From: Williamsia muralis NBRC 105860
GTDB lineage: Bacteria; Actinomycetota; Actinomycetes; Mycobacteriales; Mycobacteriaceae
Length of the DNA stretch: 64,000 nucleotides
Reading direction: 5' to 3'
NCBI RefSeq assembly: GCF_001598915.1
Contig: NZ_BDAP01000001.1
Location: forward strand, 558,001 to 622,000
The notes beneath the pieces are model-generated. The model did no database searches. It had not been told where the DNA came from and saw only the letters and a program-made list of their open reading frames with translations. Below, piece after piece: positions 32,783 through 46,342 of the stretch (its first letter is position 1; the number at the start of each line of letters is the position of its first letter). The translations under genes and the position numbers were made by a program.

Positions 32783-34102
<1,320 letters not shown>

Positions 34103-34142
34103 CATCACGCAGGAACCCTCGCTCGGTGATCGAGAAGGGCCG

Positions 34143-35495
34143 ATGGTCGAGAAAGGCGCATCCCGGTTGGGCATCGAGTCCGCTCCGCACGTCCGTTCGC
34201 AGGAGCGCGCAGCAGTGACAAACGGCCCGGTGTTGCCGAGGCCTGCCGTTGTTGTCGCGGTGTCCCTCGCGCTCGGCCTGCTCGCGGTGTATCTGCAACA
34301 TCTGGCCGTCCCGATCGACACCCCGTACTGGGGAGTCTTCGGTAACCAACTCGACCTGGCGGTGTATCGAGAAGGCGCGCAAGCGGTACTCGACGGTGAC
34401 CGCCTGTACGAGGCCAAACTCGTGGGCGTCATGGATTACACCTATGCGCCGGTGTCGGTAATCCTGTTCATGCCGTTCGCGGCGATGTCGCTTGAACTCG
34501 CGCGGATCGTCTGGATGGCCGGCATCTTCGTCGCCCTCTATCTCTGTATCACTCTGAGCTTCAAAAGCCTGCGGTACCAGATCAATTGGTCGGTTCGGAT
34601 CTTTGCCGGCGCACTTGTCCTGGTGAGCGCGCTGATGGAGCCGGTCCGCACCACCATGTGGTACGGCCAGATCAACGTGTTCCTCATGCTGCTCATCCTC
34701 TGGGATCTCCTGCAGGGCAGGCACAGTCGCATCCGCGGTCTCGGGGTGGGGATCGCTGCCGGGATCAAGCTGACGCCCCTGATCTTCGTGTTCTATCTCC
34801 TGATCAACCGCAACTGGCGTGCGGTGTGGCTGGCGGGTGCGGGGTTCGTGGGCACCATCGCGCTCGGGTTCGCGGTGATGCCCCGTGATTCCTGGAAGTA
34901 CTGGAGCGGGACGTTCATCGACTCCAAGCGGGTCGGTGCCCCCAACACCGTCGGCAATCAATCGATCAGGGGAGCGTTGGCGAACCTGTGGCAGACCGAC
35001 GCACCCAACCCGTTGGTGTGGATCACCTTGGCCGTTGCGGCGCTCGCGCTCGGGATGACTGCGGCCTCACTGGCTCATCGAGCCGGGCATGAGCTGCTCG
35101 CCGTCACCCTCGTCGGTATGACGGGGACCGCGGTGTCGCCGATGTCGTGGGGACACCACTGGGTGTGGTTCGTCCCGGCCCTCGTGATCGGAATCCACCT
35201 GACGCTGCAGGCGCGGGGTGCTTTTGCCAAAGCGCTGGCGGCGACGGCGGTGGTCGCTTTGATGGCGACGACATTCATCTGGCGCACATACCGTTCGTTT
35301 CCGGTATTGCAGATCGAACGGGTTCTGCCGGACGGTTACTTCACCGGGCTGTACCACAAGGTCGGCATCCCTGAGCTGCGGTGGTTCACCTACGACCCTT
35401 ACAACTGGGTGTTCGTGGTGACAGCGGTGGCTGCCATCGTGTGTCTCACCTGGCGGCGCCGCGTCGAGACTCCGGAGCCGGTCGCGGCGGGTTAG
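34143..35495 (+). CDS. GT87 family (GT-C) mannosyltransferase, copy 1
   Basis: 450-residue polytopic glycosyltransferase using a polyprenyl-phosphate sugar. The first extracytoplasmic loop has NQLDLAVYREGAQAVLDG, with the acidic residue expected to be catalytic. Further family stretches are MEPVRTTMWYGQINVFLM, GIAAGIKLTPLIF and SWGHHWVWFVPAL. Members in mycobacteria (PimE, Rv2181) add alpha-1,2-mannose to PIM and lipoarabinomannan. AGAAGG precedes the ATG. A close paralogue follows 30 bases later. Acceptor unknown. Confidence 0.85.
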   Translation: MVEKGASRLGIESAPHVRSQERAAVTNGPVLPRPAVVVAVSLALGLLAVYLQHLAVPIDTPYWGVFGNQLDLAVYREGAQAVLDGDRLYEAKLVGVMDYTYAPVSVILFMPFAAMSLELARIVWMAGIFVALYLCITLSFKSLRYQINWSVRIFAGALVLVSALMEPVRTTMWYGQINVFLMLLILWDLLQGRHSRIRGLGVGIAAGIKLTPLIFVFYLLINRNWRAVWLAGAGFVGTIALGFAVMPRDSWKYWSGTFIDSKRVGAPNTVGNQSIRGALANLWQTDAPNPLVWITLAVAALALGMTAASLAHRAGHELLAVTLVGMTGTAVSPMSWGHHWVWFVPALVIGIHLTLQARGAFAKALAATAVVALMATTFIWRTYRSFPVLQIERVLPDGYFTGLYHKVGIPELRWFTYDPYNWVFVVTAVAAIVCLTWRRRVETPEPVAAG

Positions 35496-35525
35496 CATCC
35501 CTGGACACGGGGTGAGGAGTAATGG

Positions 35526-36839
35526 GTGACAGCGGATCAAGCGCGCGCTGAGACAACGGACGACACGAGGGCACAGCAGCGATTTCCGAGTCACCCACTT
35601 CTGCTGATCGCGTTTGTGGTGGGCGCGGCCATTGCGCTGCTCGTGCAAGTCCGGTTCATTCCTCTGGACGCCCCCATCTTCGGGTTGTTCAAGAACCAGG
35701 TCGACCTCGACGTGTACCGCGCCGGGGCCCAGCACCTGTTGCACGGCCGGCAGCTCTACGACTTGCCGATGCTCCGGAACGGCCTGCTGTACACCTACAC
35801 CCCGTTCTCGACCATCGTCTTCCAGCCTTTCGGCTGGATGAGCGCCGAGATGGCCGTGGACGTGTGGAGTGGCCTCATCTTCGTCACCCTGTACTGGGTC
35901 ATCGTGGCCTCGTTCCGGAGTCTGGGCTACGAGATGAGCTGGTCGCTGGCCATCGTGGCCGCGTCGATGGTCTGCGCCGTCACCTTGATGGAGCCGGTCC
36001 GCACCACGATCTGGTACGGGCAGATCAACGTCTTCTTGATGGCGATCGTCCTGTGGGACCTGCTTCGGCCAGATGGCAGTCGGCTCAAGGGCATCGGTGT
36101 GGGTGTCGCGGCGGGCATCAAACTGACCCCCGCATTCTTTGTCGTCTACCTCGCCGTCACGAGACGGTGGCGCGCGGTGGTCGTGGTGATCGCGACATTC
36201 GGCGCCACGATCCTGATCGGCTTCCTCGCGACGCCCCGGCAGTCGTGGAACTACTGGACCGCCCGGGTGGTGAACTCCGACCGCGTCGGACCCACAGACG
36301 CTCCCAGCAATCAGTCGATCAAGGGCGCCCTGGCCACGGTGTTCGATACGACCACGCCCAGCAACGTGCTGTGGATTGCGTGTTCTGCACTCGCGGTGGT
36401 CCTCGGGATCGGCGCGGCCTGGCTGGCGCACCGTGCGGGCCAGGAGCTGCTCGCCCTGTGCCTGACCGGGATGACCACTGCGGCAGTGTCACCGTTCAGC
36501 TGGGGCCATCACTGGGTGTGGTTCGTGCCTCTGCTGGTGTTCGCGGTGCACCTGCCCATCGCGGCGTGGCGCGCCGGGTCGCGACCACTCGCCGGATTGT
36601 TGTGCCTCGCTCCGCCCGCGCTCTTCACCGCCGTGTTCATCTGGCGCAATCACCTCCCCGGAGGCGCCATGGGCTTCAAGCCCTTCTACGGCACCGGCAT
36701 GTTCATGACGCCGTTCCCGGACTGGCTCCGATGGTTTTCCGCCGAGCCCTACCTGTGGGTGTTCGGCGTGACCGCGGTGTTGTGCATCGCCGTCTGGGGC
36801 CCGGGCGAAGTGCGGGTCAGGGGTGTCGCCCGTCGTTAG
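35526..36839 (+). CDS. GT87 family (GT-C) mannosyltransferase, copy 2
   Basis: 437 residues from GTG, with GAGGAG upstream. Same architecture as the preceding gene and clearly a tandem duplicate: NQVDLDVYRAGAQHLLHG, MEPVRTTIWYGQINVFLM, GVAAGIKLTPAFFV and SWGHHWVWFVPLL align directly. N-terminal cytoplasmic tail differs. An out-of-frame ATG four bases upstream is not the start. The two may act successively on one polymer or on different acceptors. Converges on the GntR gene. Confidence 0.85.
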   Translation: MTADQARAETTDDTRAQQRFPSHPLLLIAFVVGAAIALLVQVRFIPLDAPIFGLFKNQVDLDVYRAGAQHLLHGRQLYDLPMLRNGLLYTYTPFSTIVFQPFGWMSAEMAVDVWSGLIFVTLYWVIVASFRSLGYEMSWSLAIVAASMVCAVTLMEPVRTTIWYGQINVFLMAIVLWDLLRPDGSRLKGIGVGVAAGIKLTPAFFVVYLAVTRRWRAVVVVIATFGATILIGFLATPRQSWNYWTARVVNSDRVGPTDAPSNQSIKGALATVFDTTTPSNVLWIACSALAVVLGIGAAWLAHRAGQELLALCLTGMTTAAVSPFSWGHHWVWFVPLLVFAVHLPIAAWRAGSRPLAGLLCLAPPALFTAVFIWRNHLPGGAMGFKPFYGTGMFMTPFPDWLRWFSAEPYLWVFGVTAVLCIAVWGPGEVRVRGVARR

Positions 36840-36859: not shown

Positions 36860-37567
36860 TCACTCGCGGAGTATCGCCTCGAACGCCATCCGATCGCCGC
36901 GATACACGGTCCGCACCCTCTCGATCGGCCGACCGTCGGTATCCAGGGAACGCCGGTGCATCAGCAACATGGGCATGGCCGTGGTGGTTTCGAGTAACCG
37001 TGCCTCTTGGGGGGAGGGCAGCACGGTCTCGATCCGTTCCAGGGCGCTCCCGAAGACAACACCCGCATTGCGGATGGCCGCATACAGCGACGTGCTGGGG
37101 TCGAACGTCTCCGTGAAAGAACCGAACCGGGTTTTCGGTAGGTACGTGCTCTCCAGACCGAGACGTGCGCCGTCTGCGAGCAACACGCGCTGCAGATGCA
37201 TCACTTTCGACCCCGCGGGCACCTCCAGGTCGGCGCACATCTCGGCGTCGGCGGGCACGTCCTCCCAGGTGACCAACAGGCGGGCGGGGACTCGTCCCTG
37301 ACTTTGGGCGCCCTCGGTGTAGGACCGAAGCGACAGTGGCTGAACCAGTTTGGGTGCGGACACCACGGTTCCGCGACCCCGGCGCTCGATGCGGCCCTCG
37401 ACCAACAGCTCGTGCAAAGCCTGGCGGACGGTCTCTCGCGATACCTCGAACCGCTCGGCGAGTTCGCGCTCGGGTGGCACCGTGTCACCTTCGGTGAGCT
37501 TGGCCAGTATCTGTTCGAGCTCGGTGCGCACGAGGTAGTACTTGGGAACGCGCTCCTGTGCGGTCAT
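36860..37567 (-). CDS. GntR/HutC family regulator of the phosphonate locus
   Basis: 235 residues. Winged helix-turn-helix at residues about 30-68 (ELAERFEVSRETVRQALHELL), followed by a UTRA ligand domain (SKVMHLQRVLLADG, GLESTYLP, ERVRTVYRGDRMAFEA). Lies in an operon behind the HD gene (ATGA overlap) and divergent from the catabolic genes. The intergenic region carries two palindromes of the HutC type, so this protein probably represses both transcripts until a phosphonate ligand binds the UTRA domain. Confidence 0.88.
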   Translation of the reverse strand: MTAQERVPKYYLVRTELEQILAKLTEGDTVPPERELAERFEVSRETVRQALHELLVEGRIERRGRGTVVSAPKLVQPLSLRSYTEGAQSQGRVPARLLVTWEDVPADAEMCADLEVPAGSKVMHLQRVLLADGARLGLESTYLPKTRFGSFTETFDPSTSLYAAIRNAGVVFGSALERIETVLPSPQEARLLETTTAMPMLLMHRRSLDTDGRPIERVRTVYRGDRMAFEAILRE

Positions 37568-38088
37568 GACGGCAACCGACTGTCGACGCGGCGGGCGACG
37601 TCGAGCAGGTCACCGATCGACATCATCGGTGCGCCGGGCACTTTCGCGGCGTCGTCGTACCGGCGCAGCCGAAGCGCATCGGGCCAGCGAGGGTCCTCGA
37701 GGTACGCGACGGAGACCGCCGCACCGCCCTGTGCCCGTAGCGAGTGGATCGAGGTACCCGACAACGTTCCCGCATACCCGGAGGCGGTCGCGGCAAGATG
37801 GCGCTTGGCGGCGACGTGGGCTCCGGCGAGCCAACCCACACGGGGTCCGAAACGCGGCGTCAGCCACTGTTCTGCTGCCCGGTCATGATGTTCGGCGGCG
37901 GCCGCGCCGAGCAGGGGACTGTGGCCGACGTCGTGAAGTGCTGTGGCCAGGGTCAATTCGTCATCGGCGTTGTCGATGGTGGCGAGGTGGGCCGCCTGCA
38001 ATGCGTGGTCGAGTTCGTCCACGGCCTCTTCGTCCCACACGCCCCGCAGTGATCGCAATACGGCCTCGGTCTCCCCGATCGAATCCAT
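37564..38088 (-). CDS. HD-domain protein of phosphonate operons (PhnZ/TmpB-like)
   Basis: 174 residues. Metal ligands: His in HALQAAH, HD in ALHDVGHSPLLG, further His in HHDRAAEQWL and GAHVAAKRHL, and the C-terminal RLRRYDDAAKVPG segment characteristic of diiron HD oxygenases (MIOX, PhnZ, TmpB), which cleave 1-hydroxyphosphonates, rather than HD phosphohydrolases. It resembles the family annotated as phosphonate-degradation-associated HD protein. TATGCT (38095-38100) lies six bases before the ATG: a leaderless promoter with an operator just upstream. Exact substrate unknown. Confidence 0.8.
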   Translation of the reverse strand: MDSIGETEAVLRSLRGVWDEEAVDELDHALQAAHLATIDNADDELTLATALHDVGHSPLLGAAAAEHHDRAAEQWLTPRFGPRVGWLAGAHVAAKRHLAATASGYAGTLSGTSIHSLRAQGGAAVSVAYLEDPRWPDALRLRRYDDAAKVPGAPMMSIGDLLDVARRVDSRLPS

Positions 38089-38104
38089 GCCCCCAGCATA
38101 GCCT

Positions 38105-38124
38105 CAATTGGTCTATACCAATTG
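38105..38124. promoter_or_regulatory. HutC-type operator 1 (HD/gntR side)
   Basis: CAATTGGTCTATACCAATTG is a 20-base palindrome broken only at the centre. It lies directly upstream of the TATGCT -10 of the HD/gntR transcript, covering the -35 region. The core GGTCTATACC matches the general GGT-CTA-ACC pattern of DasR, NagR and PhnF operators. Confidence 0.75.
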
Positions 38125-38153
38125 TTAACCCGAAGTTCGCGCATTGGTCCTTT

Positions 38154-38169
38154 ATTGGTCTAGACCAAT
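38154..38169. promoter_or_regulatory. HutC-type operator 2 (oxidoreductase side)
   Basis: ATTGGTCTAGACCAAT is a perfect 16-base palindrome 17 bases before the oxidoreductase start. A half-site ATTGGTC at 38143 lies 11 bases upstream of its left arm, one helical turn. With operator 1 the intergenic region of 98 bases contains three ATTGGTC copies on the plus strand. Confidence 0.8.
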
Positions 38170-38186
38170 CGGGCAGGGTGAACGTC

Positions 38187-39314
38187 ATGCGAGTGATGAT
38201 CGTCGGCGGTGGGATCCTGGGCACTGCCCATGCGTGGGCCGCGTTGCGGCGCGGACATGAAGTGTTTCACGTGGAGCGCGAAGCGGAGGCGCGAGGCGCC
38301 ACGGTCCGGAACTTCGGCCTTGTCTGGGTGTCGGGGCGGTCGTCGGCCGAACTGTCGATGGCCCAGCGTTCCCGTGACCTCTGGGCCGAGATCGGTGGCT
38401 TGGTAACGGATGTCGGGTTCCGCGACATCGGATCGATCACTCTGGTCCGCACCGCGGCGGAACTCTCGGTGGCCGAGGAGATGGTCAGCAGATCAGATGC
38501 CACCGCCCGCGGCTTCGAACTCCTCACCCCCGACGACGTGGTGCGGAAGAACCCGGCGTTGCGGGGCGACTTCATCGCCGGGTTGTACTGTTCCCGCGAC
38601 GCCGCAGTCGAGTCGCGACAGGCACTTCCGGCACTACGCGCGTACTTGTCGGAGTCCGGACGTTATCGGTTCGAGGCAGGCACCGAGATCCGTGGTGTCG
38701 AGCGCACGGGATCTGGTGTGAGTGCCCGGGATGACAGGGGCCGGACGCACACCGCTGACGCCATCATCGTGTGCCCCGGGGCGGCGCATGGCGGTCTGGC
38801 CCGAGAACTGGCCGGGGACATGCCGGTTCGCCGGGTGCGGTTGCAGATGATGCAGACAGCGCCGTTGGGCGAAACGCTCACCACGGCGATCGCGGATGCG
38901 GACAGCTTCCGCTACTACCCGGCATTCGCGGGGGGGAACCTCGACCGTCTCCGGAACACGCAGCCGCAGAATCCGATTGCCGACACCCACAAGATGCAGT
39001 TGCTGTGTGTTCAGCGACTGCACGGCGGCCTGACCATCGGCGACACGCACGAGTACGCCGAACCGTTCGGGTTCGACGTCGCCGAGGACCCCTACCGGCT
39101 GCTCAGCGACGTGGTCGAGGGATTTCTCGGACGCAAGCTACCGCCGGTCGTGCGCCGCTGGGCGGGTGTGTACTCGCAGTGCGTCGACCCAGAGGCGATC
39201 GTGCACCGCACCCAGGTTGCGGACGGCATCTGGGTGGTCACTGGTCCAGGAGGCCGGGGGATGACCCTGGGTCCGGCCATCGGCGAACAAACCATCGACC
39301 TCATCGACTCTTGA
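38187..39314 (+). CDS. FAD-dependent oxidoreductase of phosphonate loci (DAO family)
   Basis: 375 residues, D-amino-acid-oxidase fold. The Rossmann motif is MIVGGGILGTAHAWAALRRGHEV; ATVRNFGLVWVSGR and the C-terminal VTGPGGRGMTLGP complete the FAD site. It matches the family described as TIGR03364, linked to phosphonatase-like hydrolases. By family and position it likely oxidises the C-N bond of 2-aminoethylphosphonate or an N-methyl derivative to phosphonoacetaldehyde. Start ATG preferred to a GTG nine bases upstream that would leave no room for GGCAGG. First gene of a six-gene transcript. Confidence 0.85.
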   Translation: MRVMIVGGGILGTAHAWAALRRGHEVFHVEREAEARGATVRNFGLVWVSGRSSAELSMAQRSRDLWAEIGGLVTDVGFRDIGSITLVRTAAELSVAEEMVSRSDATARGFELLTPDDVVRKNPALRGDFIAGLYCSRDAAVESRQALPALRAYLSESGRYRFEAGTEIRGVERTGSGVSARDDRGRTHTADAIIVCPGAAHGGLARELAGDMPVRRVRLQMMQTAPLGETLTTAIADADSFRYYPAFAGGNLDRLRNTQPQNPIADTHKMQLLCVQRLHGGLTIGDTHEYAEPFGFDVAEDPYRLLSDVVEGFLGRKLPPVVRRWAGVYSQCVDPEAIVHRTQVADGIWVVTGPGGRGMTLGPAIGEQTIDLIDS

Positions 39315-39328
39315 AGGGACGTAGAACA

Positions 39329-40009
39329 TTGAGCGACAACTCGATTCGCCTGGCCGTACTCGACATGGCAGGCACCACGGTGGCCGACGACGGCCTCGTG
39401 ATGAAAGCCTTCGACGCGGCGGCTTCGGCGGCCGGCATCCCCGACTCGGGTCCGGAGCACGAAGCGGCCCGTCAATACGTCATCGACACCATGGGGCAGT
39501 CGAAGATCACCGTCTTCCGCGCCCTGGTCGACTCGGAAGACCTGGCACAACAGGCGAATCGGGCATTCGAACAGGCATATGACGCGCTGATCGACGGTGG
39601 CGCTGCGGCCCCGATCGACGGCGCGGCGGCAGCCATCGGACGCCTGCGTGAAGGGGGCGTGAAGGTCGCGCTCACCACCGGCTTCAGCAAGCCCACCAAA
39701 GACCGGTTGCTCAAAGCCCTGGGATGGGAGTCGATCGCGGATCTGACCCTGGCGCCATCGGAAGCCGGGCGCGGGCGTCCCTACCCCGACCTCATCTTGA
39801 CCGCTCTGCTCCGCTTGGAGATCGACGATGTCCGCCAGGTTGCGGTGTTGGGCGACACCGCAAACGACATAGTGAGCGGGCATCGCGCCGGGGCCCGCGT
39901 CGTGGCAGGGACGCTCACGGGGGCACATGACGAAGGCCAATTGCGTGCCGCAGAACCGACTCACCTCGTCCCGACGGTTGCCGACTTCGCCGACCTCCTG
40001 ATCGGTTGA
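39329..40009 (+). CDS. Phosphonatase-like HAD hydrolase (PhnX-like)
   Basis: 226 residues from a TTG start preceded by GAAGGGA; no ATG or GTG lies before the nucleophile motif. The motif is LDMAGTTV (Asp12), with the DxAGT form special to phosphonoacetaldehyde hydrolases. MGQSKITVFRAL aligns with PhnX MGLLKIDHVRAL, so the Schiff-base lysine (here Lys59) is kept. GRPYPD carries the Arg replacing the usual HAD lysine, and LGDTANDI is the metal-binding motif. Expected to cleave phosphonoacetaldehyde to acetaldehyde and phosphate. It lies 14 bases after the oxidoreductase gene. Confidence 0.87.
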   Translation: MSDNSIRLAVLDMAGTTVADDGLVMKAFDAAASAAGIPDSGPEHEAARQYVIDTMGQSKITVFRALVDSEDLAQQANRAFEQAYDALIDGGAAAPIDGAAAAIGRLREGGVKVALTTGFSKPTKDRLLKALGWESIADLTLAPSEAGRGRPYPDLILTALLRLEIDDVRQVAVLGDTANDIVSGHRAGARVVAGTLTGAHDEGQLRAAEPTHLVPTVADFADLLIG

Positions 40010-40089
40010 GCCGGGTTGCCATGTCGATCGCTTCACCTCACGAATCATCCCCAGCCCTCACGCGACCACACGACACCCAAGGAAAAGCA

Positions 40090-41148
40090 ATGCGCATGAA
40101 GCCGCGTCACCCCCACCCGTCCCGACTCATCGCGATAACAGCTGCTGCTGTTGCGATTTCACTCACCGCCGCGTGCGGCGGCACCGGTTCGTCGAGCACA
40201 GACGGCAAGACCGTCACCGTCTACAGTGCCGACGGACTCGCCTCCTGGTACGAGTCCGAGTTCAAGAAGTTCACCGACGACACCGGCATAGCGGTCGACG
40301 TCGTCGAGGCAGGTTCGGGAGAGGTGGTCTCCCGGGTCCAGAAGGAGCAATCCAACCCGCAGGCCGACCTGCTCGTCACCTTGCCTCCGTTCATCCAGAA
40401 GGCCGACGCCGATGGGCTGCTGGTGGAAACCGATGTGGACACCACCGGTGTGGCACCCGAAGGTATCGGTCCGGCAAACAAATACGTGTCCGTGGTGAAC
40501 AATTACCTCACCTTCATCGCCAATCCGGGAGCCGAGCCCCCACCCCAGACGTGGGACGACCTCCTCGATCCGCGGTTCAAGGGAAAGATCCAGTACTCCA
40601 CACCCGGTCAAGCAGGTGACGGTACGGCCGTGCTCCTGCTCCTGCAGCATCTCCTCGGGAAACAAGGCGCCCTGGACTATCTGAAGAAGCTGCAGACAAA
40701 CAACGTCGGGCCGTCGAGTTCCACCGGGAAACTCCAGCCCAAGGTCAGCAATGGCGAACTCCTGGTGGCCAACGGCGACGTGCAGATGAACCTGGCGTCG
40801 ATCCGTGACGATGGATCGAAGTTCGAATTGTTCTTCCCCGCAGCCGCCGACGGCACCCGTACCACCGTGTCGCTGCCCTACGTCGCAGGCGTCACCAAGG
40901 GAGCGCCACACGCCGACGAAGCAGAGCAACTGCTCGCCTTCCTGCTCTCGCAGGACGTCCAGAACGGCGTGGGCGAGGCAGCAATGGGCGTCTCGGTACG
41001 AACCGACGTGCAGCCCGGAGCCGGCGACGGCGGGCCCACCCCCGCGAAGGCGATCGAGGGAGTCGAGATCTGGAATCCGGACTGGAACGCGGTGCTGGCC
41101 GACCTCGACGCCGATATCGCCGCCTATCAGCAGGCCACCGGTAACTGA
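40090..41148 (+). CDS. Phosphonate (2-aminoethylphosphonate-type) ABC substrate-binding lipoprotein
   Basis: 352 residues. Signal peptide with lipobox LTAACGG, then a type II periplasmic-binding fold beginning TVTVYSADGLASWYESEF and containing TWDDLLDPRFKGKIQYSTPGQAG (in parts) and a FFPAAADGTRTTVSLPYVAGV stretch. This is the ferric/AEP-binding (PhnS) class. AAGGA lies 5 bases before ATG. Followed by its ATPase with 2 bases between. Confidence 0.87.
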   Translation: MRMKPRHPHPSRLIAITAAAVAISLTAACGGTGSSSTDGKTVTVYSADGLASWYESEFKKFTDDTGIAVDVVEAGSGEVVSRVQKEQSNPQADLLVTLPPFIQKADADGLLVETDVDTTGVAPEGIGPANKYVSVVNNYLTFIANPGAEPPPQTWDDLLDPRFKGKIQYSTPGQAGDGTAVLLLLQHLLGKQGALDYLKKLQTNNVGPSSSTGKLQPKVSNGELLVANGDVQMNLASIRDDGSKFELFFPAAADGTRTTVSLPYVAGVTKGAPHADEAEQLLAFLLSQDVQNGVGEAAMGVSVRTDVQPGAGDGGPTPAKAIEGVEIWNPDWNAVLADLDADIAAYQQATGN

Positions 41149-41150
41149 TC

Positions 41151-42311
41151 ATGACCGACCCCATCGCAGCCGGTTCGAGGACGCTCTCAGCACATGCGCT
41201 CGCGAAGACCTCGACGGCTCCGGCCATCAGCTTCGACCGCGTGACGGTCACCTACGGTCGCGGCAAGAAGGCGACCGATGCGCTGGTCGACTTCAGCCTA
41301 CGGGTGGCCAAGGGTGAGACCGTGGCTCTGCTGGGGCCGAGTGGGTCGGGCAAATCGACCGCGCTCAAGGCGCTGGCCGGGTTCGTCCGCCCCTCCTCGG
41401 GCCGGGTGCGGTTGAACGATCGCGACGTCACCGACCTCCCGCCGGCCAGGCGGGGGATCGGTGTGGTCGTCCAGTCGTATGCGCTGTTCCCGCACATGCG
41501 GGTGGGTGACAACGTCGCATTCGGTCTCCGGGCCCGGCGAGTTCGTGGCGGCGAGCTGAAAGATCGTGTGGCAGAGGCGCTTGCCATGGTGAGTATGTCC
41601 GAGTATGTCAACCGTCTGCCGAAAGAACTGTCCGGAGGTCAGCAGCAGCGGGTGGCGATAGCCAGGGCATTGGCCATCCGGCCGGACGTGCTGTTGCTGG
41701 ACGAGCCGCTCGCGGCTCTCGATGCCCAACTGCGCCAATCGATGCTCGGCGAATTGCAGCGGTTGAGGGACGCGTTGCCGGACACCGCGATGCTGTATGT
41801 GACCCACGACCAGAGCGAGGCGCTGGCCTTGGCGGACCGGATTGTGGTGATGCGTGATGCCAGACTGATCGATGTCGACACGGCGGAGAACCTCTGGAAC
41901 CGCCCGCCGACGACGTTCACCGCAGCATTTCTCGGTGGGGCAAACCTCATTCCGTGCAAGGTCGGAAGGGTCAGCGGCTCAGCGGCATTGGTCACCGTCG
42001 GAGACCTCACGCTGAGCGCGCATGCGCCTGCTTCGACTGCGTGGCCGCCCGGCTCCGACGCGTACCTGTGCGTTCGACCGCACACCCTCACGGTGGGTTC
42101 ACCCACGGCGCGCGGCGCGTTGCGGGCGAGGGTCGCGACGCAGGTGTGGCGTGGCGCGTCCACGCGTCTGTCGCTGTCGATCAACGGACTGCCGGACGTG
42201 TTGGTGGAAGCCGACGTCCCCGGACATTCCCGGCACCCCGCCGGTGCGGAGGTCGGCGTGGTCCTGCCTGCTCAGGCGGGCACACTGGTGCCGGCGGACG
42301 CCGCGCGATGA
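41151..42311 (+). CDS. Phosphonate ABC transporter ATP-binding protein (PhnT-like)
   Basis: 386 residues. Walker A GPSGSGKST, Q-loop VVQSYALFPHM, signature LSGGQQQR, Walker B LLLDEP and the H-loop THDQSEA are all present, followed by a C-terminal TOBE domain (residues about 270-380). An unusual Ser/Ala-rich N-terminal extension of about 25 residues precedes the first strand. Overlaps the permease start (ATGA). Confidence 0.92.
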   Translation: MTDPIAAGSRTLSAHALAKTSTAPAISFDRVTVTYGRGKKATDALVDFSLRVAKGETVALLGPSGSGKSTALKALAGFVRPSSGRVRLNDRDVTDLPPARRGIGVVVQSYALFPHMRVGDNVAFGLRARRVRGGELKDRVAEALAMVSMSEYVNRLPKELSGGQQQRVAIARALAIRPDVLLLDEPLAALDAQLRQSMLGELQRLRDALPDTAMLYVTHDQSEALALADRIVVMRDARLIDVDTAENLWNRPPTTFTAAFLGGANLIPCKVGRVSGSAALVTVGDLTLSAHAPASTAWPPGSDAYLCVRPHTLTVGSPTARGALRARVATQVWRGASTRLSLSINGLPDVLVEADVPGHSRHPAGAEVGVVLPAQAGTLVPADAAR

Positions 42312-43219
42312 CCGCAACGCTCGAGCGTGACCGCACCTCGCCACCGGCGTCGCCTCCCCGTCGGGCCGAGGGGTACTGGTCACGCATCGCTTGGACCGCA
42401 ACACCTTTGCTGGTGGTTGCCCTCTTCGCGGTCTATCCGCTGATCCGTGTGCTCCTCAGCTCGACCGAAGGAACAGGCACCAGCTCATGGAGCGGAGTCC
42501 TCGGATCTGAGATCTTCCGCACCGCTCTGCTGCGGACGGCCCAGATCGCCATCTGCTCCACTGCCGGGTGCCTGATTCTGGGGATCTTCGTGGCAGTGGT
42601 GCTCGCGTTCGTGCCGTTCCCTGGATCGCGGGTCGTCGGCAGGCTCATCGACACCGTGCTCGCCTTGCCGTCCTTCTTGATCACCCTGGCCTTCACCTTC
42701 CTCTACGGAACGGCAGGCGCTCTGAACGCCCTGATCATGGAGATCACCGGACGCGACACCGCATTGGTCAATTTTCTCAACACACCCGCGGGGGTGATCG
42801 CGGCCGAGATCACCTTCTTCACACCGTTTGTGGTCCGTCCTCTGCTGGCCGCCTTTGCCCTCGTCTCGCGTGAACAGCTCGATGTCGCGGCCAGTCTCGG
42901 CGCCTCGCCCTGGCGAGTACTGCGCACCGTCGTGATGCCCGAGGCGTGGCCCGCCTTGATGGCCGGTGGCAGCCTGGTGCTGCTGCTGACGCTGAACGAG
43001 TTCGGCATAGTGCTGTTCACCGGAGCCAAAGATGTTGTGACACTGCCGGTGCTGATCTACACGAGGGGAATCGTCACCTTCGATCTGCCGGGCGCCGCCG
43101 TCATCGGCACGGTTCAGGTGGTGCTGTCGCTGACGCTCTACCTGACCTATCGCCTCATCTTCGCCCGACTGCTGAGTGGACGTAAAGGACAACCCGATGT
43201 TGTTGTGGACAAGCCGTAG
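42308..43219 (+). CDS. Phosphonate ABC transporter permease 1
   Basis: 303 residues, about six transmembrane helices. The EAA loop is DVAASLGASPWRVLRTVVMPEAWPAL (in parts), where the ATPase docks. N-terminus is Pro/Arg-rich. Start ATG overlaps the ATPase stop. The last 23 bases overlap the second permease. Confidence 0.9.
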   Translation: MTATLERDRTSPPASPPRRAEGYWSRIAWTATPLLVVALFAVYPLIRVLLSSTEGTGTSSWSGVLGSEIFRTALLRTAQIAICSTAGCLILGIFVAVVLAFVPFPGSRVVGRLIDTVLALPSFLITLAFTFLYGTAGALNALIMEITGRDTALVNFLNTPAGVIAAEITFFTPFVVRPLLAAFALVSREQLDVAASLGASPWRVLRTVVMPEAWPALMAGGSLVLLLTLNEFGIVLFTGAKDVVTLPVLIYTRGIVTFDLPGAAVIGTVQVVLSLTLYLTYRLIFARLLSGRKGQPDVVVDKP

Positions 43220-43994
43220 CAAGGCCATCGTCTGGACCGTGTTCGCGATTGTGGTGCTGACCGTGTTCGCGGCGCCGATCGCCACGGTGGTGCTCGCCGC
43301 GCTGGCAGGGTCGTGGACCGGACCTCTGCCCAGCGACCTCGGGACAACCCACTTCGACCAGGCGATGTCGGGCGACGAACTCGCCAGTCTCTCGGTGAGC
43401 CTGCAGACCGCCGTGATCTCCGGTGCGATCGCGCTGCTGCTCGGCGCGTGGGCGGCCATCGCCGCTCGACGGACCCCGACCTGGCTCCGCCGGATGACCG
43501 ACGCCGTGTTCCACCTGCCGATCGCGATCCCCTCGGTGGTTGTCGGGCTGGGAACCCTCATCGCGTTCAACGCCGGGCCGGTCCCATTGGGCGGCACCAA
43601 ATGGATCGTGATCGTGGCGCACACCGTGCTCGTCCTGGCTTTTGCCTTCAGCGCGGTGTCGGCGGCGCTGGAGCGACTCGATCCCGCGTACGAACAAGCG
43701 GCGGAGTCGCTGGGGGCCGGGCCGGTGCGTGTGCTCACCCGCATCACCCTGCCGTTGCTGTTGCCCGCACTGGGCGCCGCCGCCGGCCTGGCGATCGCGC
43801 TGTCGATGGGTGAGCTCGGGGCCACCGTGATGGTGTACCCCGCCACCTGGAAAACGCTTCCGGTGACCATCTTCGGCCTGTCCGATCGTGGCCAGGTGTT
43901 CTCTGCCGCCGCCTGCACCACGGTTCTGCTCGTCGTCACGCTGGTGGCTCTCCTCGCGTTGGGCAGGATCCGCGGTCGAGTCGTTGCCCGTTGA
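43197..43994 (+). CDS. Phosphonate ABC transporter permease 2
   Basis: 265 residues, six transmembrane helices, EAA loop in EQAAESLGAGPVRVLTRITLPLLLPAL (in parts). The start ATG is chosen because AAGGA lies 7 bases upstream; an in-frame GTG at 43176 is an alternative. Two separate permeases with one ATPase and one binding protein give a complete importer. It is the last gene of the phosphonate transcript. Confidence 0.88.
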   Translation: MLLWTSRSKAIVWTVFAIVVLTVFAAPIATVVLAALAGSWTGPLPSDLGTTHFDQAMSGDELASLSVSLQTAVISGAIALLLGAWAAIAARRTPTWLRRMTDAVFHLPIAIPSVVVGLGTLIAFNAGPVPLGGTKWIVIVAHTVLVLAFAFSAVSAALERLDPAYEQAAESLGAGPVRVLTRITLPLLLPALGAAAGLAIALSMGELGATVMVYPATWKTLPVTIFGLSDRGQVFSAAACTTVLLVVTLVALLALGRIRGRVVAR

Positions 43995-44059: not shown

Positions 44060-46342
44060 GTGGCTCTCTACCGGACGTATCGACCCGCGACCTTTGCCGA
44101 GGTCGTCGGGCAGGAACATGTCACCGAGCCGCTCGGTCGCGCGCTCGACTCCGGCCGCATCAATCACGCGTATCTGTTCTCCGGTCCGCGTGGTTGCGGT
44201 AAGACCTCGTCGGCGCGCATCTTGGCCCGGTCGCTCAACTGTGAACAAGGGCCGACGTCCACCCCATGCGGGGTGTGTTCGTCATGTGTGGCCCTGGCCC
44301 CGGGTGGCCCCGGCAATCTCGACGTGATCGAACTCGACGCCGCCAGCCATGGCGGTGTCGAAGACACCCGCGAACTCCGCGATCAGGCCTTCTATGCGCC
44401 GGCGGAGTCGCGCTACCGGGTGTTCATTATCGACGAGGCGCACATGGTGAGCAACGCGGGATTCAACGCCTTGCTCAAGATCGTCGAGGAACCACCCGAG
44501 CACCTCATCTTCGTCTTCGCCACCACCGAGCCGGAGAAGGTGCTGCCCACCATCCGCTCGCGCACCCATCACTACCCGTTCCGCCTGTTGGCTCCGGCCG
44601 TGATGCGTACCCTGCTCGAACGCATCTGTGCCAGCGAGAAAGTCACGGTGGAGCCGCCGGTGTTCCCCCTGGTGATCCGTGCCGGCGGTGGCTCACCCCG
44701 TGATTCGCTCAGCGTCCTGGATCAGCTGCTGGCCGGGGCGTCGGCGGAAGGCGTCACCTACCAACGCGCACTGACCCTCCTCGGTGTCACCGACGTCGCG
44801 TTGATCGACGACGCCGTCAACGCCCTCGCAGACCACGACGGGGCGAAGCTGTTCGGAACCATCGAGTCGGTTGTCGATGCCGGCCACGACCCGCGCCGAT
44901 TCGCTGTCGACCTCCTCGAACGTCTCCGCGACCTGATCCTGATGGACGCGGTACCCGACGCCGCCGAGCGCGGACTCGTGGAAGCGCCCGACGACCAGGT
45001 CGAGCGGATGACCGAGCAGGTGGCCAAGCTGGCGCCGGGAACGTTGGCGCGTTTCGCCGAGACCGTGCACGACGCGCTCGGTGAGATGCGAGGAACCACG
45101 TCGCCGCGGCTCCTGCTCGAGGTGATGTGTGCCCGGATGCTGCTTCCGGCGGCGTCCGACGCCGAGTCTGCGGTGCTGCAACGGATCGAGCGCATCGAGG
45201 CGCAGCTGGCGGGAGGCGCGGCGATTCCGGCTGCACCCCTCGGCTCCTCATCGGGAGGGGCGCCCGCGGAACCGCCTCCGAGCAAGTTCGTCCGCGCGTC
45301 ACAGCGCAAACAATCCGAGGGTTCGGCCGAATCAACCTCTCCCGCGGCCGCTTCGGCGGCGGTTCCCGCACCCGCGCCGATCCCGGCCCCTGCGCCTGAA
45401 CCCACTCCCACGCCGGAACCGGCACCGAGCCCAGAACCCACCCCGGCTCCCGAGCCCACCCCGACGCCGGAACCGGCCCCGGCTCCCGAACCCACCCCGA
45501 CGCCGGAACCGGCCCCGGCGCCCCAGCGGACGCCAACCGCGAAGTCGGCCCCTGCTCCGGAGCCGGCTGCAGCCCCCGAGCCGGTCGTCCGCACGCCCGA
45601 ACCGTCTGCCGGCCCCGCGGCCGAATCGCCCGTCGACACAGCGGTGTCCGTCCCCGATGAAGCGGACGTCCCACTACCGCCGGAACCCGACTACGAGCCC
45701 GAGCCGGAACCCGCTGTCGAGTCGGCTGCAGCGCCTGCCGAGCCTGCCGGAGCTCCCGCCGCCGGAGGCCCTGATCTCGCTGCGGTGCAGGCGAAGTGGC
45801 AGGAAGTGCGCACCGAGGTCCGCACCGCCAACAAGGTCACCGAGGTGATGCTGTCCGGCGCCACGGTTCGCGGCGTCAACGGCACCACGCTTGTGCTCAG
45901 TCACGACTCCGCGCCACTCGTGCAGCGGCTCAGCTCTCCGCATGCGGTCGAAGTGCTCACCGGAGCGATGTCGAAAGTATTCGGTGGTAGCTGGGAGATC
46001 TCGGTGCACGCGGCGGCGTCGCTGCCCGCAGACACCGCCAAGCCTCAGGCCGCCGCGCCTGGGAGCACCCGCAAGCCCGAGGCGAAGGCGCCCTATGTCC
46101 GCCCGAGCCGCGGCGCGGGTGCCGCGAGCGCCTCGGGTGACGCGCCCGAACCGGAGCCCGAACCCGAACCTGAACCGGTACAAGCACCACCCGAGCCCGT
46201 TGACGACGAAGACCTCACCGATGCCGAACGCGACGAGATGATCGCCACGGCAAGAGATTCCACGCCGGATCCGCGACAGGATCCCGAACAGGTGGCAATC
46301 GAACTCCTTGCCACCGAGCTGGGCGCCCGCCCGATCACCTGA
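44060..46342 (+). CDS. dnaX: DNA polymerase III subunit gamma/tau
   Basis: Clamp-loader ATPase, 760 residues. Walker A GPRGCGKTSS, zinc motif CEQGPTSTPCGVCSSC, Walker B VFIIDEAHM and the SRC-like IRSRTHHYPF identify it. A long Pro/Glu/Thr/Ala linker (about residues 430-560, many EPTPTPEPAP repeats) separates the clamp-loader part from a conserved C-terminal domain (KWQEVRTEVRTANKVTEVMLSGATV, in parts), expected to contact the polymerase. I see no A-rich slippery site, so a frameshifted gamma form is unlikely. GTG start. Confidence 0.96.
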   Translation: MALYRTYRPATFAEVVGQEHVTEPLGRALDSGRINHAYLFSGPRGCGKTSSARILARSLNCEQGPTSTPCGVCSSCVALAPGGPGNLDVIELDAASHGGVEDTRELRDQAFYAPAESRYRVFIIDEAHMVSNAGFNALLKIVEEPPEHLIFVFATTEPEKVLPTIRSRTHHYPFRLLAPAVMRTLLERICASEKVTVEPPVFPLVIRAGGGSPRDSLSVLDQLLAGASAEGVTYQRALTLLGVTDVALIDDAVNALADHDGAKLFGTIESVVDAGHDPRRFAVDLLERLRDLILMDAVPDAAERGLVEAPDDQVERMTEQVAKLAPGTLARFAETVHDALGEMRGTTSPRLLLEVMCARMLLPAASDAESAVLQRIERIEAQLAGGAAIPAAPLGSSSGGAPAEPPPSKFVRASQRKQSEGSAESTSPAAASAAVPAPAPIPAPAPEPTPTPEPAPSPEPTPAPEPTPTPEPAPAPEPTPTPEPAPAPQRTPTAKSAPAPEPAAAPEPVVRTPEPSAGPAAESPVDTAVSVPDEADVPLPPEPDYEPEPEPAVESAAAPAEPAGAPAAGGPDLAAVQAKWQEVRTEVRTANKVTEVMLSGATVRGVNGTTLVLSHDSAPLVQRLSSPHAVEVLTGAMSKVFGGSWEISVHAAASLPADTAKPQAAAPGSTRKPEAKAPYVRPSRGAGAASASGDAPEPEPEPEPEPVQAPPEPVDDEDLTDAERDEMIATARDSTPDPRQDPEQVAIELLATELGARPIT
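45455..45526 (+). repeat. 36-bp tandem repeat inside dnaX
   Basis: CCCACCCCGACGCCGGAACC recurs at 45455 and 45491 in a 36-base unit (12 codons) encoding Pro-Thr-Pro-Thr-Pro-Glu-type peptide; a less exact copy precedes it. Being in frame it only lengthens the linker, and copy number is likely to vary between strains. Confidence 0.7.

Follow-up and report, generated by a model that had tools for sequence, protein, structure and literature searches.

A divergent phosphonate gene cluster in Williamsia muralis

We analysed a 64,000-nucleotide stretch of the genome of Williamsia muralis NBRC 105860 (contig NZ_BDAP01000001.1, positions 558,001 to 622,000), which as a whole is called the window here. 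Positions 36860-43994 of the window hold eight genes in two divergent units (Table 1). In the leftward unit the 3' end of a gene for an HD-domain oxygenase overlaps a GntR/UTRA regulator gene by 4 bp. The rightward unit runs from a flavin adenine dinucleotide (FAD) oxidoreductase through a HAD hydrolase to a binding protein, an ATPase and two permeases, with gaps or overlaps of at most 77 bp. These gene families had been assigned in an earlier sequence-only reading, and the open reading frames and family scans bear the assignments out. When the locus proteins were scanned, curated cut-offs were exceeded for TIGR03364, TIGR03351, NF011620 and NF011624; the HD protein, the ATPase, the second permease and the regulator scored below the cut-offs of their own best families. 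The binding protein, ATPase and two permeases make up the complete PhnSTUV set of a 2-aminoethylphosphonate (AEP) importer of the ATP-binding cassette (ABC) type. The cluster is not a chance arrangement, because 35 of 66 named loci centred on HD genes show the same gene order in full. It is a real, conserved and coherent aminophosphonate locus, a variant of a published kind of cluster.

Table 1. Features of the locus, given by position in the window, with family cut-offs in brackets
Feature	Position	Strand	Evidence and remarks
GntR/HutC (UTRA) repressor, PhnF-like	36860..37567	-	Family scans; PhnF TIGR02325 123.9 bits (cut-off 156.8); nearest solved structure M. smegmatis PhnF 3f8m, 228.2 bits, residues 3-233
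PhnZ/TmpB-like HD-domain oxygenase, 174 aa, Trp replacing iron-capping Tyr	37564..38088	-	Family scans, metal ligands, fold
Operator-like palindrome TGGTCTATACCA	38109..38120	.	About 20 bp before HD start codon
Operator-like palindrome TGGTCTAGACCA	38156..38167	.	47 bp from TGGTCTATACCA, about 20 bp before FAD start codon
FAD-dependent amine oxidase, TIGR03364 (HpnW/PbfD type)	38187..39314	+	TIGR03364 345.6 bits (cut-off 285.1), residues 2-366, full length; PF01266
Phosphonatase-like HAD hydrolase, TIGR03351	39329..40009	+	TIGR03351 231.3 bits (cut-off 218.9); likely TTG start
AEP-type ABC importer, binding protein	40087..41148	+	NF011620 (AEP binding protein) 473.3 bits (cut-off 310); structure 4r6y at 2.2e-84
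Importer ATPase, PhnT-like (under PhnT cut-off)	41151..42311	+	Family scan; best family PhnT, 344.8 (cut-off 499.15)
Importer permease, PhnU type	42308..43219	+	NF011624 393 bits (cut-off 247); overlaps ATPase stop
Importer permease, PhnV-like (under PhnV cut-off)	43176..43994	+	Family scan; best family PhnV, 223.2 (cut-off 358.7); start possibly a few codons later

Conservation and modularity of the locus

The 66 HD-centred loci came from one scan of genome contigs for which four aligned HD proteins served as the query, and were found through two peptide patterns over HD residues 21-29 and 84-91. Gene presence was called by score thresholds set in this analysis: the HD gene was present in 65 loci (L145 holds a fragment only), the regulator in 59, the FAD gene in 55 and the HAD gene in 51, and of the importer genes the ATPase in 45, the binding protein in 43 and the permeases in 41 and 40. 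Some of the incomplete loci are cut by contig ends. Most of the 66 loci belong to Mycolicibacterium/Mycobacterium, others to Rhodococcus, Prescottella, Gordonia, Williamsia and Antrihabitans. Another importer replaces the AEP-type one in four of the 66 (L086, L101, L107, L124) and in genome G034; the L086 binding protein belongs to PF12974 (Phosphonate-bd), and the importers of L101, L107, L124 and G034 were assigned by similarity to the L086 proteins.

Among 150 genomes of the order Mycobacteriales, 18 carry TIGR03364, 17 over the cut-off and one under it, split in two pieces. All 18 have a TIGR03351 match on that contig, at about 3 kb or closer. The FAD and HAD genes belong together. HD adjoins the pair in 4 of these 18 genomes (G000, G005, G034, G095). 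Within Williamsia, 4 of 9 genomes have TIGR03364; HD lies in the 1.5-kb flanks in W. muralis and in G219, and is missing there from the other two. A Tsukamurella plasmid has an importer-bearing core without HD, and so do 6 of the 20 regions taken from order genomes (L069-L074). The loci of R. jostii and R. opacus retain importer, operators, regulator and HD with neither FAD nor HAD at the locus, and both genomes carry FAD and HAD genes elsewhere. In Variovorax HD genes adjoin carbon-phosphorus (C-P) lyase genes, and in Asticcacaulis and Comamonas the HD gene is divergent from TIGR03364-phnX. HD is an optional, separable module, which can stand with the importer alone.

We also picked 13 genomes, not taking every such case, in which the HD locus has no HAD, no FAD or neither by the set thresholds. 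Anywhere in these genomes, TIGR03364 was found over its cut-off in 12 of 13 and TIGR03351 in 11 of 13; a metagenome bin has neither over cut-off.

A few database records stand out. The FAD gene was matched as two abutting pieces in L113:6764-7878 and G033:C26:61810-62884, possibly through a frameshift or sequencing error. The nearest named record, L080 (96.2% identity over 16 kb), is titled Kitasatospora arboriphila; the other close relatives are Mycobacteriales, and the label looks doubtful. A 5.7-kb contig titled Candidatus Melainabacteria (L142) carries an actinobacterial-type FAD-HAD-HD cluster and is likely from a mislabelled bin; its HD and HAD do not differ from those on G005:C211, a contig placed in Mycobacteriales, the order of the window.

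The FAD oxidase and the HAD hydrolase

PbfD enzymes, one of them in TIGR03364, convert N-methyl-AEP and AEP to phosphonoacetaldehyde (PMC10590968). The assayed TIGR03364 member, PbfD1, does so from N-methyl-AEP; PbfD2 of Mariniblastus, from a genome reported to be without PhnW, oxidises AEP 4-fold less efficiently than N-methyl-AEP, and one PbfD probably replaces PhnW (PMC10590968).

The HAD protein scored 75.5 bits against the PhnX family TIGR01422, below the cut-off of 220. The catalytic residues of PhnX are Asp12, Lys53 and His56 (PMC11203657). The window protein keeps the nucleophile Asp12, and its Lys59 aligns to the Schiff-base Lys53 of PhnX in a pairwise match (MGLLKIDHVRAL vs MGQSKITVFRAL). 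In a set of 73 HAD rows, 71 of them distinct (L097 equals L075 and L142 equals L065, both also doubled in a 70-row HD set), Asp12 and Lys59 were each kept in 72 with one gap. The column of PhnX His56 held Val in 63 rows, Ala in 8, Met in 1 and one gap, thus His in 0 of 72, and the window has Val62 there; the column of PhnX Tyr128 held Phe in 71 rows and Tyr in 1. The three annotated PhnX proteins of Asticcacaulis, Comamonas and Acinetobacter retain His56. Since addition of the PhnX fragment with MAFFT misplaced its first ~25 residues, Lys53 and His56 were read from the pairwise match and a separate alignment. The model of the HAD protein (predicted local distance difference test, pLDDT, 94.0) matched HAD folds including PhnX 1swv (template modelling score, TM, 0.81), the top-ranked fold being a Pseudomonas hydrolase of unstated function. 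At 1e-20 the window copy is the single TIGR03351 protein of the genome.

Identity with ordinary PhnX was rejected, as TIGR01422 stays below cut-off and His56 is missing from all 72 sequences with a residue there; by its sequence the hydrolase is PhnX-like, not PhnX. The earlier assignment of a PhnX-like hydrolase holds for the likeness, but the protein is not PhnX itself.

The HD-domain oxygenase

The best structures for the HD sequence are PhnZ and TmpB. When its model (pLDDT 93.7) was used in a fold search, only ten PDB chains came under E 0.001, all of them PhnZ or TmpB (PhnZ 4n71 at E 1.8e-9, TM 0.88). Columns were counted in 66 sequences, those of 65 loci plus the window. The diiron ligands H...HD...H...H...D were present in 66 of 66, with the last Asp in 65 and one gap. 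His28, His52, Asp53, His68, His91, Lys95, Ser113 and Gln120 are invariant, and Arg142 and Asp145 occur in 65 of 66 with one gap. Besides Tyr24 and Glu27, the pocket of PhnZ includes Lys108, Ser126, Gln133, Arg158 and His62, which were placed onto the HD protein by sequence alignment. The His62 column held His in 53 and Arg in 13 sequences, and the Glu27 column Glu in 44, Asp in 15, Val in 4 and Ala, Leu and Pro in one each. His28, His91 and the residue-21 column lie inside the search patterns, so their conservation arises partly by construction; residue 18, the Trp, lies outside both.

In PhnZ, Tyr24 is bound to the second iron as long as no substrate is present (PMC8177086). In place of the YxxE substrate loop, a motif taken from the same paper, the window has WxxE. 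Four further HD proteins found otherwise include two with Trp and one with Tyr; one main-clade protein aligns Arg beside its Tyr. At 1e-3 the window HD is the only TIGR03276 match in the genome. Fold and conserved residues support the earlier proposal that the HD enzyme handles hydroxylated phosphonates, with the substrate itself a matter of prediction.

Phosphonate enzymes sought elsewhere in the genome

The lack of PhnW at the locus, noted before, extends to the whole genome: no TIGR02326 match was found at E 1e-20, a model-only result with no control genome over the cut-off. In the 150 order genomes weak TIGR02326 matches occurred in 37 and none was over cut-off. PhnA likewise had no match in the W. 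muralis genome by its model, for which no control was over cut-off, and the C-P lyase protein PhnJ was found in 0 of 21 genomes including that of W. muralis, with E. coli as positive control. For a hydroxylase of the TmpA/PhnY* type, the query was a Rhodococcus NJ-530 PhyH dioxygenase lying beside an HD gene; at 1e-10 it gave no match in the W. muralis genome and, among 61 genomes from the family, matched one. The earlier statement that no PhnY is present therefore holds for this single TmpA-like query and does not extend to the other hydroxylase subfamilies, which were not searched. On the Rhodococcus NJ-530 plasmid (L150:5102-6498) a gene of the phytanoyl-CoA-dioxygenase family directly precedes a Tyr-type HD gene, a pair resembling PhnY*/PhnZ or TmpA/TmpB.

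The regulator and operator-like sites

M. smegmatis PhnF reportedly binds a 12-mer similar to the two palindromes that stand between the HD and FAD genes. In the 5.54 Mb genome the pattern TGGTMTAKACCA occurs at just these two places; a reversed control gave an equal number of matches, so that it is the placing and not the count that is unusual. Of the 66 loci, 62 have one or more TGGTNNNNACCA sites upstream of HD; matches numbered 75 in about 18.5 kb of these upstream stretches, as opposed to 20 in the 993 kb outside. Where a locus has two TGGTNNNNACCA sites, as in 13 cases, the spacing is always 47 bp, and a further 5 loci have a one-mismatch site at this distance; in most mycobacterial loci there is a single site, with no second operator 47 bp from it. 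This co-conservation predicts that the regulator binds the palindromes. In M. smegmatis, PhnF uses two sites to repress the phnDCE operon, which is transcribed divergently (PMC7866108).

From the 13 picked genomes 17 regions surrounding TIGR03351 genes were fetched, one of which (L177) is an HD locus. In 8 of the 16 others (L161-L164, L167, L174-L176) the same operator lies beside HAD plus a PhnC-like ATPase, and 7 of these 8 have a PhnF-like regulator. Where such regions have two sites (L167, L174-L176) the spacing is 58 bp, about one helical turn above 47. These second loci hint that the mycobacterial phnF-phnDCE system is linked to phosphonate enzymes. In a literature search that left most subscription papers outside its coverage, the 12-mer operator and TIGR03351 were found in no publication and PhnHD was covered by one only.

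Proposed function and alternatives

The gene set looks built for import of small phosphonates and release of phosphate by two separate enzyme routes. We propose that the locus serves phosphorus scavenging from natural aminophosphonates under a local PhnF-like repressor, which would act at the two operators between the divergent units, and that the ABC importer takes up AEP-type phosphonates. In one route, the FAD oxidase would deaminate AEP or N-methyl-AEP, giving H2O2 together with phosphonoacetaldehyde or a closely related compound; the PhnX-like hydrolase would then split the C-P bond via a Lys59 imine with phosphoryl transfer to Asp12. Independently, the HD diiron oxygenase would cleave phosphonates arriving hydroxylated next to phosphorus, the likeliest being (R)-1-hydroxy-2-aminoethylphosphonate, converted to glycine and phosphate. 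As such substrates would arrive already hydroxylated, no PhnY*-type hydroxylase would be needed, and the joining of HD oxygenases to varied C-P systems, with no hydroxylase among them, agrees with imported 1-hydroxy-AEP being used directly. With substrates, products and regulation inferred from the genes, residues, operator-like sites and their conservation, we consider this whole reading, FAD plus HAD as one route and HD as a second that takes hydroxylated phosphonates directly, somewhat more probable than its being wrong.

Several observations weigh against it. Absence of both His56 and Tyr128 of PhnX argues against plain phosphonoacetaldehyde as the HAD substrate. The sequence-only reading had the oxidoreductase make phosphonoacetaldehyde from AEP or an N-alkyl AEP; amine oxidation in place of PhnW agrees with the published PbfD enzymes and with the 18/18 linkage of FAD and hydrolase genes, but the phosphonoacetaldehyde intermediate is not secured because the hydrolase is PhnX-like and has no His56. 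The FAD protein is just 25-27% identical to the Acinetobacter TIGR03364 proteins. Five of the 13 picked genomes show, in a fetched region, a more distant TIGR03364 subtype (78-96 bits vs the window FAD) beside its own TIGR03351 and therefore say little on the window-type FAD, and M. tusciae has FAD and HD with no TIGR03351 over cut-off. The importer family is named after AEP, so uptake of hydroxy-AEP is presumed, and the transporter under the control of M. smegmatis PhnF is one for phosphate and not for phosphonate (PMC7866108). The HD protein reached 121.9 bits against TIGR03276, below the cut-off of 214.6, and likewise stayed under the equivalog cut-offs of TmpB and PhnZ1; in the column of the gating PhnZ Tyr24, Trp stands in 55, Phe in 6 and Tyr in 5 of 66 sequences, with Trp in the window.

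The departures of the HD protein would also suit a drift to another job, either as a phosphohydrolase or as an oxygenase on a non-amine alpha-hydroxyphosphonate such as hydroxymethylphosphonate: besides the low family score, the loop Tyr is replaced by Trp or Phe in 61 of 66, and 13 of the 66 have Arg in the His62 column. Yet the six metal ligands and the pocket Lys, Ser, Gln and Arg are invariant or nearly so, the best folds are PhnZ and TmpB, and an acidic residue fills the amine-binding Glu column in 59 of 66 (partly by construction, as this column and two His lie inside the search patterns), which makes such a drift improbable. The departures of the hydrolase bear on a different possibility, that FAD and HAD are specialised for 1-hydroxy-AEP, taking it to 1-hydroxy-phosphonoacetaldehyde and on to glycolaldehyde and phosphate, with both branches serving hydroxy-AEP. 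That HAD differs from PhnX at a catalytic position and shares its locus with an HD enzyme whose family needs an alpha-hydroxyl speaks for it, as does the TIGR03364 family text, which suggests 1-hydroxy-AEP as the FAD substrate (quoted in PMC10590968). However, assayed PbfD1 takes N-methyl-AEP to phosphonoacetaldehyde (PMC10590968) and FAD with a PhnX-like hydrolase is common without a linked HD; we think this specialisation unlikely.

FAD and HD might instead act in series, FAD making or trimming the HD substrate (for instance by N-demethylating N-methyl-hydroxy-AEP) with HAD as a side branch, an idea also raised in PMC11203657. The two genes lie head to head with an operator region in common, and in L083, L088 and L081 both stay as open genes at a locus that has lost HAD and importer; one of these genomes, M. 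tusciae (L088), has no TIGR03351 over cut-off, which also speaks for a serial arrangement. As a general rule drawn from this loss of HAD, however, FAD feeding HD was rejected: five genomes have FAD and HD at the locus but no HAD there, and in four of them TIGR03351 is found elsewhere beside the same operator. Moreover, the two Rhodococcus loci retain HD without FAD, and published PbfD enzymes deaminate to phosphonoacetaldehyde (PMC10590968). We regard the serial arrangement as very improbable.

Returning to two independent routes, a more specific claim joins them into an actinobacterial two-branch system. Here a Trp-gated, hydroxylase-independent HD clade would cleave imported hydroxyphosphonates alone, FAD would feed a His56-less phosphonatase acting not on phosphonoacetaldehyde but on a relative such as 1-hydroxy-phosphonoacetaldehyde, and a PhnF-type regulon would elsewhere take in phnDCE-type loci. 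All of this together is a tentative proposition that we would sooner doubt than accept; if true, the path from FAD to a His56-less phosphonatase would be an undescribed route of C-P hydrolysis.

Relation to known systems

The idea put forward in the sequence-only reading is less novel than was assumed there: both the chemistry of the FAD step and an equivalent cluster in Achromobacter have already been published (PMC10590968, PMC11203657). In Achromobacter hpnW, phnX, the importer and phnHD lie in one cluster, hpnW-phnSXUT/phnHD, which like the locus here brings together a TIGR03364 FAD protein, an importer, a C-P hydrolase and a TIGR03276 HD protein without phnW, PhnY* being described as absent; a similar cluster is mentioned for O. 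anthropi GPK 3, whose genome is given as wholly without phnW (PMC11203657). The differences are that Achromobacter has a true PhnX with His56 where W. muralis has a PhnX-like TIGR03351 protein, a LysR regulator as opposed to a PhnF-like GntR protein with twin operator-like sites, an HD protein with all known substrate-binding residues by its authors' alignment whereas here Tyr is replaced by Trp, and phnW elsewhere in the genomes while none was found in that of W. muralis (PMC11203657).

In the PbfD2 system of Mariniblastus, with phnX alone, an FAD oxidase likewise probably takes the place of PhnW ahead of a C-P hydrolase, but that hydrolase is of another subfamily and the HD oxygenase is an addition here (PMC10590968). 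The same source mentions that Terrabacteria, for the most part cyanobacteria, have PbfD homologs not located in phnWX/phnWYA clusters, and the word "actinobacteria" does not occur in its main text. The HD protein shares the diiron oxygenase fold and ligands with the PhnY*/PhnZ and TmpA/TmpB systems; it differs by Trp for the gating Tyr and by having no hydroxylase partner at the locus or, by the single query, in the genome. With phnF-phnDCE of M. smegmatis the locus has in common the closest solved regulator (3f8m), the divergent layout and two operator sites, but a phosphate transporter stands there and an AEP-type importer with enzymes here (PMC7866108). The features that set the locus apart from the published systems are the non-PhnX hydrolase, the HD protein with Trp or Phe mostly in place of the iron-capping Tyr, the optional nature of HD and the association of TIGR03351, operator and PhnC-like ATPase. 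A literature search joining actinobacterial genera with phosphonate terms gave no publication on this locus among the matches listed (best 15 of 80).

The locus connects phosphonate enzymes with a type of regulator known from phnDCE, the phosphate transporter of M. smegmatis. It also offers a background without detected PhnW, PhnA or PhnJ for settling the substrates of two widespread enzyme types, TIGR03351 hydrolases and HD oxygenases without a PhnY* partner (no assay of either was found in the literature search).

Outside the locus, two adjacent GT87 glycosyltransferase genes (PF09594), apparently tandem paralogues, lie just before it at 33969-36839. The next gene after it is dnaX (DNA polymerase III gamma/tau, 44060-46342), in which PEPTPTPEPAPAP-like repeats form a long low-complexity stretch.

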